Shown: one piece after another, positions 36,766 to 37,860 of the stretch | Numbering within the stretch: the first letter of the stretch is position 1 | Layout of the letters: each line of letters starts with the position of its first letter | Assembly (NCBI RefSeq): GCF_000165425.1 | Contig: NW_001799388.1 | Coordinates: 62,001 to 126,000 of the forward strand | Length of the DNA stretch: 64,000 nt | Direction: 5' to 3' | Source: Paramecium tetraurelia | Taxonomy: Eukaryota > Ciliophora > Oligohymenophorea > Peniculida > Parameciidae | The notes under the pieces: generated by a model | Told to the model about the DNA's origin: nothing | The model's database searches: none | The model's input: the letters and a program-made list of their open reading frames with translations, nothing else | Made by a program: the position numbers and the translations under genes

Positions 36766-37860
36766 TCAAAGAGAATCAATCAGTATAGATACTGATTTGG
36801 AGTTTATAATAAAGTACTGGAATTATTAAATCATAGCTGCTATATCATTTGTTACTTATTAGATTAGATATATAAACACAATATTATATTCAATAACATT
36901 CTTTTCATTTTGAGAGTTTTTCATAGACTTATAGATACTTTCTAAGATGAGAGAGTGAATTATTGCATATGTAAATTAACTATTAATATATTAAAGTGCG
37001 TACCTAATATTTTTGAATAAAAATTTGAATGAGTTGAAGTAATCTTTGAGTGAAATTCTCTTATTTAAAGTGATAAAGGTTAACTATCATGTGTTGACAA
37101 TCATCCCTTTGAAGTTAGTGTTCTAACAAGCTCTTTTCTTGAGTATTACAAAATTCTACAATTGTTTTCAAATTAAAGTTCTTCAAAATTCTATAATCTT
37201 CCTTTGATTATGGAACATATCCATAACAAATATTTTTATTAAGTTAGAATATCATTTATTTTACTTTTGCTAAATTATCTGAATAGACTAATAAAGCATC
37301 TTTATAATATGATTCTAAAAAATAATAACAATACTGTTTACATTCAGATTCTAAATCCAGTTTTTACACAGGACTTGAAAACTCACTTTTGGTCAAGAAG
37401 TGATATTAATACTGTATCTAAGGATCAGCTACATCTAAGAGGCAAGTGTATTAAGAAATTCCATCTTTATTTTTCATTCTAATTCTTTTTTAAAATTTGC
37501 CCAGAGTTTCAGGAGATCCAGAAATATAGATCAAGCAATTTGATGGATTTAAACACTAAAAGCAAACCTTTCTGTAGTTCCACACATCAATTGTATGTTT
37601 AGTAGTTACTCTATTGGGTCCAGATTCCCATAAAACAGTTTAAATACTCTCATATTGAGAAATGAAATATTTATACTCAATTTTATGGTAGGCTATCTCC
37701 ACTTCCCAAATATCATTCTAAAGATTGATATAATAATTACTTCCGTCCAATTCATTCGGATTGCTTGTTTAGGATTCCATTGCCCCAAATACTTTGAATT
37801 CCCAGAAATATACACAGCCTAACCGAATTCAGTTTTGAATTGGATTTTTAAATGAATCAT
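36766..37860 (-). CDS. Laforin-like protein: two CBM20 domains and a degenerate dual-specificity phosphatase
   Basis: Introns of 23, 24 and 28 bases splice to exactly 340 codons. A first starch/glycogen-binding CBM20 reads AVYISGNSKYLGQWNPKQAI and IEYKYFISQYES; a second reads CLIYISGSPETLGKF and IQYQYHFLTKSE. A dual-specificity phosphatase domain follows (YGYVPQSKEDYRILKNFN, then FQYFIINSKSVSILIDSL, comparable to the C-terminus of laforin). At the catalytic loop the expected HCxxGxxR reads ICNNSLSH: the Cys is kept (codon 36965-36967) but His, Gly and Arg are replaced, with His (36947-36949) in the Arg position. It is therefore probably a pseudophosphatase that binds polyglucan. Confidence 0.8.

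Follow-up and report, generated by a model that had tools for sequence, protein, structure and literature searches.

The window, the whole 64,000-nucleotide stretch of DNA analyzed, carries on its minus strand a gene with the domain order of laforin, in which the catalytic loop of the phosphatase has lost residues of its signature. The locus raises the question of whether such a gene encodes a maintained protein with another role, whether it is decaying, or whether its 3' end has been misread.

Gene structure and sugar-binding half

The original prediction of a CBM20 plus dual-specificity phosphatase (DSP)-like gene on the minus strand, starting with the ATG at 37860, was borne out by the paralog alignment and by the Pfam match to CBM20. 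In the genes read in the host genome TAA and TAG are Gln, and with this ciliate code the window gene (36905..37860, minus strand, as are its features below) runs from the ATG to a TGA at 36907-36905 and encodes 302 amino acids. Both its start and its end match those of five paralogs. Three introns had been proposed, of which only two were supported by the reading frame and the paralogs. Exon 1 (37741..37860) encodes residues 1-40 and is followed by intron 1 (37718..37740; 23 nt, GTA..TAG, phase 0). Exon 2 (37004..37717) encodes residues 41-278, and intron 2 (36980..37003; 24 nt, GTA..TAG) lies directly 5' of the strand that runs into the catalytic loop. Exon 3 (36905..36979) encodes residues 279-302 plus the TGA and holds the dead P-loop.

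The site and phase of intron 1 were the same in all six genes of the family described below. An intron at the site of intron 2 was likewise present in all six, with lengths of 24, 27, 28, 24, 23, and 25 nt; in C228b, which has two extra introns, it is the fourth. Overall, the family introns measured 22-28 nt, and Paramecium introns are described as ultra-short, around 25 bp, in PMC5014332. Because the length of the pre-loop intron is not a multiple of three in three of the six copies, its splicing is needed for the frame there. In the window gene, C163, and C174 the length of this intron is a multiple of three and no in-frame TGA is present; if it were retained, the protein would gain eight or nine residues immediately ahead of the loop. 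In-frame stops are said to be highly frequent in Paramecium introns of this length class (PMC5014332).

The N-terminal CBM20 domain (residues 1-84; 37586..37860) is split by intron 1. The window protein matched Pfam CBM20 (PF00686) with an E value of 9.8e-19 and 67.4 bits (cut-off 23.3), and the domain matched a glucoamylase starch-binding domain in the PDB. The sugar-binding W-K-W triad (W28, K56, W70) was found in 6/6 family members in the alignment. Its register was taken from a profile alignment to the glucoamylase starch-binding domain; a single-sequence alignment shifts the Lys. The three residues correspond to W29, K206, and W278 of TgLaforin, which are reported as the CBM20 residues engaging sugar (PMC9254107).

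A second, degenerate CBM20-like domain (residues 86-168; 37334..37582) was recognized by a profile match to the first CBM20 over 25 columns, with a score that none of 300 shuffles reached. The W-K-W triad is absent from this domain, which has no WExGPNR and in which the Trp of LGxW is replaced. The claim that two CBM20-like domains were kept therefore holds for the first, with its Pfam match and triad, but not for the second, which on its sequence is a remnant that lacks the tryptophans for binding. On reading, a second weak CBM20-like stretch also seems to precede the DSP in the intact relatives of the same genome (Pfam 13.9 bits in C10, below the cut-off), and the tandem arrangement is probably not confined to the dead family.

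The phosphatase-like half and its altered loop

The DSP-like domain (residues 178-302; 36908..37306) is split by intron 2, and the part 3' of the P-loop helix is missing. Pfam DSP (PF00782) was reported in none of the four family proteins scanned, at E values up to 1. When a profile of the DSP-like parts of all six members was compared by hhalign with nine laforin-type DSPs that are intact in the same genome, the P value was 6.5e-5 and the probability 64% over 86 columns. The match runs in order and ends at IYI/VYV, immediately before the loop. None of 500 column shuffles reached the score of the DSP profile (best shuffle 25.1 versus 34.3). With the full-length family profile, the comparison with intact DSPs gave a probability of 46.5% and a P value of 2e-4. 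Homology of the DSP-like part to laforin-type DSPs is thus indicated by a profile match of moderate strength. The best PDB matches of the intact set were LSF1 (top), LSF2, SEX4, and laforin, so these DSPs are glucan-phosphatase-like. A PDB search with the single window sequence returned CBM20 relatives, along with weak hits at chance level (XPB among them), but no DSP, and a search with a profile of five family members returned CBM20 relatives only, again with no DSP. The fold of the DSP-like domain is unproven, because single-sequence AlphaFold on the 141-residue DSP-like stretch, read through the in-frame 24-nt intron 2, gave a pLDDT of 37.

Both the reading of the gene and the paralog alignment confirmed that the loop reads ICNNSLSH. 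The dead P-loop and the next helix span residues 280-297 (IYICNNSLSHLRKYLQVY; 36923..36976), with Cys-283, with His-289 at the Arg position, and with the signature His deleted. The loop of the window protein is YI-CNNSLSHLRKYL, and all six members have the form Y[IV]-CNNSL[ST]H. In 3/3 MAFFT strategies YVHCTxGIxR was aligned over YI-CNNSLSH, which deletes the signature His, places Cys on Cys and His on Arg, and removes both Gly. The HCx5R signature was absent from 6/6 members in either Cys register. In the D-loop, the MAFFT alignment placed His-256 (37070..37072) where the intact genes have Asp; the Asp was absent from 6/6 members, the aligned column holding His in three, Ser in two, and Arg in one. 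The sequence found 3' of the P-loop helix in intact DSPs was absent from the family, also in all three strategies.

Retention of the Cys is likely but not certain, because its register rests on a one-residue gap and the hhalign match stops short of the loop; Cys-283 is probably the former nucleophile. Of the predicted combination of a kept Cys and an Arg changed to His, the His at the Arg position was thus recovered throughout the family, and the kept Cys is likely only. The losses of the signature His and of the D-loop Asp go beyond what had been predicted. A different splice might have restored the phosphatase signature, but none of 49 candidate introns (single or double GT-AG, 15-60 nt, 37198-36600) brought back HCx5R. 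From its sequence the protein is predicted to have no glucan phosphatase activity.

Paralogs under purifying selection and their descent

The host genome (69 Mb, 231 contigs) was searched with two queries, the window protein and the C228b protein. At least six members of the dead-loop family were found, namely the window gene (C176), C163, C161, C174, C215, and C228b (on C228 near 260 kb). Member counts are lower bounds from the first-look candidates that were scored, and all evidence on the family comes from this one genome. Amino acid identity to the window protein was 69% for C163, 64% for C161, 42% for C174, 42% for C215, and 45% for C228b, and pairwise identities across the six paralogs ranged from 38 to 79%. 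The dead loop and the C-terminal end are common to the window gene and the five paralogs. C163/C161 and C174/C215 look like recent duplicates. The frame is open in five of the six members. C161 (226.6-227.6 kb, L064) is the exception; the loss of one base mid-gene breaks its otherwise open frame, which may reflect recent decay or an assembly error.

Residues 280-297 ranked first for conservation among 285 segments of 18 residues. The mean pairwise identity was 0.84 in the loop, compared with 0.53 in the CBM20 and 0.50 in the DSP-like stretch that precedes the loop, and the nearly invariant patch reads C-N-N-S-L-S/T-H-L/V-R-K-Y-L. Substitution rates (NG86) were determined for the two least diverged pairs. 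C163-C161 had a dN of 0.114 and a dS of 0.90, giving a dN/dS of 0.13 (the frame break was omitted from every comparison with C161), and C174-C215 had a dN of 0.147 and a dS of 1.25, giving 0.12. For the window gene versus C163, a dN of 0.199 was obtained with a dS of 2.7, which is near saturation; distant pairs say little because they are saturated. Within residues 280-297, pN was 0.00-0.19 and pS 0.46-1.2 over 15 pairs, with about 11 synonymous sites, so few that pS values above 1 are artifacts. In 14/15 pairs, pN/pS was lower in the loop than elsewhere in the DSP-like part, the exception being the window gene with C163 (0.28 versus 0.22).

The sequences thus place the family under purifying selection, with its catalytic residues lost. 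Across the paralogs, dN/dS had been named as a check on the original prediction, and in the least diverged pairs it was about 0.12-0.13, not near one. Together with six paralogs that have the dead loop and with the loop as their most conserved part, these values uphold a maintained pseudophosphatase rather than a decayed gene. By sequence, these genes form a real, conserved family of pseudo-laforins, which is notable because the dead loop is its most conserved element.

At least 11 CBM20-DSP genes with an intact Cx5R were found in the same genome, eight in group I (C10, C11, C64, C229, C160, C175, C191, C153) and three in group II (C68, C228a, C205). These genes have in common with the family the CBM20, the second weak CBM20-like stretch on reading, and the DSP, but they keep HCTxGIxR and their DSP runs on past the loop. 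In the laforin-type DSP open reading frame of C153 (L058), the loop is HCTAGIWRAPS, with Trp replacing the Gly before the catalytic Arg. Three laforin paralogs were counted in each of two ciliates in a 2009 paper (PMC2714694). A search of part of the open-licence literature found no report of dead laforin paralogs in ciliates.

The evidence on descent points in two directions. A candidate intron at the site of the family's intron 1 was present in 8/8 group I genes, whereas the two group II genes read, C228a and C68, had no intron there. The family's N-terminal start and its D-x-W-x-H linker, in turn, are found in group II (C68). By hhalign, the family matched C68 with a P value of 2.7e-13 over 96 columns, all in the CBM20 and linker. 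In BLASTP, five of the six members aligned well with C68 only over the CBM20 and linker, and C228b aligned over nearly its whole length (23%). In the CBM20 tree the eight group I genes formed one set (98/99), with the family and two group II genes across that branch. A single origin of the family as one clade was seen in 16% of 200 bootstrap trees, in a tree with long branches flagged. The family thus stems from CBM20-DSP laforins, with the intron site pointing to group I and the start, linker, and tree to group II.

Possible role and alternative readings

The laforin architecture, a CBM20 followed by a DSP in one protein, was found in the family with a shortened DSP. Laforin, the EPM2A product, and protist laforins such as TgLaforin likewise have an N-terminal CBM20 with the W-K-W triad and then a DSP-type domain. 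The family differs from them in its second CBM20-like stretch, in the absence of HCxxGxxR and of the D-loop Asp, and in a DSP that ends after the P-loop helix. STYX-type pseudophosphatases have, as the family does, a DSP fold without a working catalytic loop. They carry no carbohydrate-binding module, and the Cys is lost there, whereas the Arg is lost here.

The nearest functional analog would be LSF1 (LIKE SEX FOUR 1) of Arabidopsis, also a glucan-phosphatase relative with altered catalytic residues and a starch-binding domain. LSF1 is described in PMC8968401 as lacking residues essential for activity, as having no detectable activity, and as a proposed protein-recruiting scaffold on starch. 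In plants, this relative of the glucan phosphatases, with no activity detected, appears to serve as a scaffold. Unlike the family, LSF1 is a plant SEX4-type protein with a PDZ and a BAM1/MDH interaction domain, and it is reported to join BAM1 and malate dehydrogenase in a complex (PMC12892837). Because it keeps Cx5R, in the loop VTCTTGFDR, LSF1 is a milder case than the family. How far mammalian laforin needs its catalytic activity is a matter of debate. In a knock-out mouse, Lafora bodies were prevented by overexpression of dead laforin, although the paper reporting this argues that catalysis is still of importance in vivo (PMC12834914). With at least 11 intact-motif relatives in the same genome, such naturally dead laforins would offer a clean test of laforin-type roles without catalysis.

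We give an even chance to the reading that the window gene is one of at least six paralogs of a catalytically dead laforin branch and acts as a glucan-bound adaptor. The N-terminal CBM20 would most likely serve as an anchor to storage polyglucan. In the phosphatase half the signature His, the Arg, the D-loop Asp, and the C-terminal helices are gone, and the former catalytic loop, now nearly invariant, would together with the basic helix (H-L-R-K-Y-L) most likely dock a partner protein. The protein could then serve as an adaptor on polyglucan, in the way proposed for LSF1 on starch. This reading is drawn from the CBM20 anchor and from a nearly invariant former catalytic loop without catalytic residues; we infer glucan binding, lack of activity, and docking by analogy. 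The scaffold or decoy role that had been suggested is plausible by comparison with plant LSF1 and with the dead laforin mutant C/S, which is reported to bind phosphate, long glucan chains, and its partners malin and PTG more strongly than the wild type (PMC12834914). More tentatively, the dead loop may have been re-used as a nearly invariant recognition site that defines a family of ciliate glucan-bound adaptors; a non-catalytic phosphatase scaffold for the control of storage sugar would then have arisen independently of plant LSF1.

The altered pocket might instead bind glucose-phosphate on polyglucan without cleaving it, and so shield or sense the phosphate. Such a phosphoglucan reader would fit the near invariance of the Cys and the loop in the family. 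It would also fit the behavior of catalytically dead laforin C/S, with its reported stronger binding of phosphate and long glucan chains (PMC12834914). However, the C/S mutant changes the Cys only, whereas the Arg and both loop Gly are replaced here, and we consider this role unlikely. It is also doubtful that the proteins are decoys or partners of the intact laforin-type enzymes, pairing or competing with them on glucan and tuning their action. The intact genes of the same genome, at least 11 in number, would provide such enzymes, and a dimer interface has been reported for the TgLaforin DSP (PMC9254107), but the shortened DSP may lack it.

Apart from the adaptor and these related roles, the genes could be decaying, or the rest of the DSP could lie in a missed exon. 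The original prediction had in fact carried the gene through a third intron to an end at 36766. This end was not sustained, because the five paralogs stop with TGA shortly after the same helix. Counted from the position of Tyr-297, the TGA comes 7-9 residues later in the paralogs and 5 residues later in the window gene, and the tails after the shared helix are EKLSFSPQK, EQLSFNHQK, KSLSISK, KSLGISK, and QKIIISQ in the paralogs and EKLSK in the window gene. The last exon so proposed (36766..36904, minus strand) is unsupported as a part of the gene. No paralog extends into it, and in the search of the genome itself, with 18/18 first-look candidates scored, the part of the query that holds it matched only its own place. 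Two GT-AG pairs do occur 3' of the loop, at 36938-36901 (38 nt) and 36928-36901 (28 nt). The 28-nt pair starts with GTC, whereas every intron used in the family and in group I genes starts with GTA, and the 38-nt pair exceeds their length range of 22-29 nt. The AAG end of both pairs does not speak against them, as AAG also closes the eight group I candidate introns. The common end of the family is a stronger argument against the exon than these intron features. For decay, the frame break of C161 can be cited, but against it stand the shared end of all six genes shortly past the loop, the low dN/dS, and the conservation of the loop, which is the highest of any part. Taken together, decay or a gene-model error is improbable.

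The proposed exon may instead be the antisense of a convergent neighbor's relic. The end of a convergent gene, cysteine-rich and SET-like by reading of its translation, lies 3' of C163 and C161. Positions 36813-36826 of the window have a 14-nt match to the end of this gene beside C161 (E value 0.03) and agree with C163 at 13/14 positions. In the window gene and in C163 alike, the match lies some 80-95 nt beyond the stop, and this similar distance suggests the relic. It is a weak point, as other chance-level matches in the same comparison were nearly as strong.

A changed but active enzyme, in which C-x5-H catalyzes another reaction, is very improbable. Cys-283 and His-289 are present in 6/6 members, but the D-loop Asp, the Arg, the signature His, and two Gly have been lost from a domain that is itself shortened. 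Hardly credible is a C-terminal part that is not a DSP, such as a remnant related to the XPB/Rad25 helicase: residues 168-227 match it below the cut-off (Pfam E 0.00064, NCBIfam E 0.0011, PDB E 0.018 and weaker), but this was taken as chance, since the match occurs in the window copy only (0/3 paralogs scanned) and is gone in the PDB search with the family profile, and the laforin DSP profile matches in order up to the strand before the loop.

A further CBM20 gene was seen at L071:499-1593 (C159), where a single open reading frame encodes a CBM20 (71 bits) and an Exo_endo_phos domain (51.6 bits).
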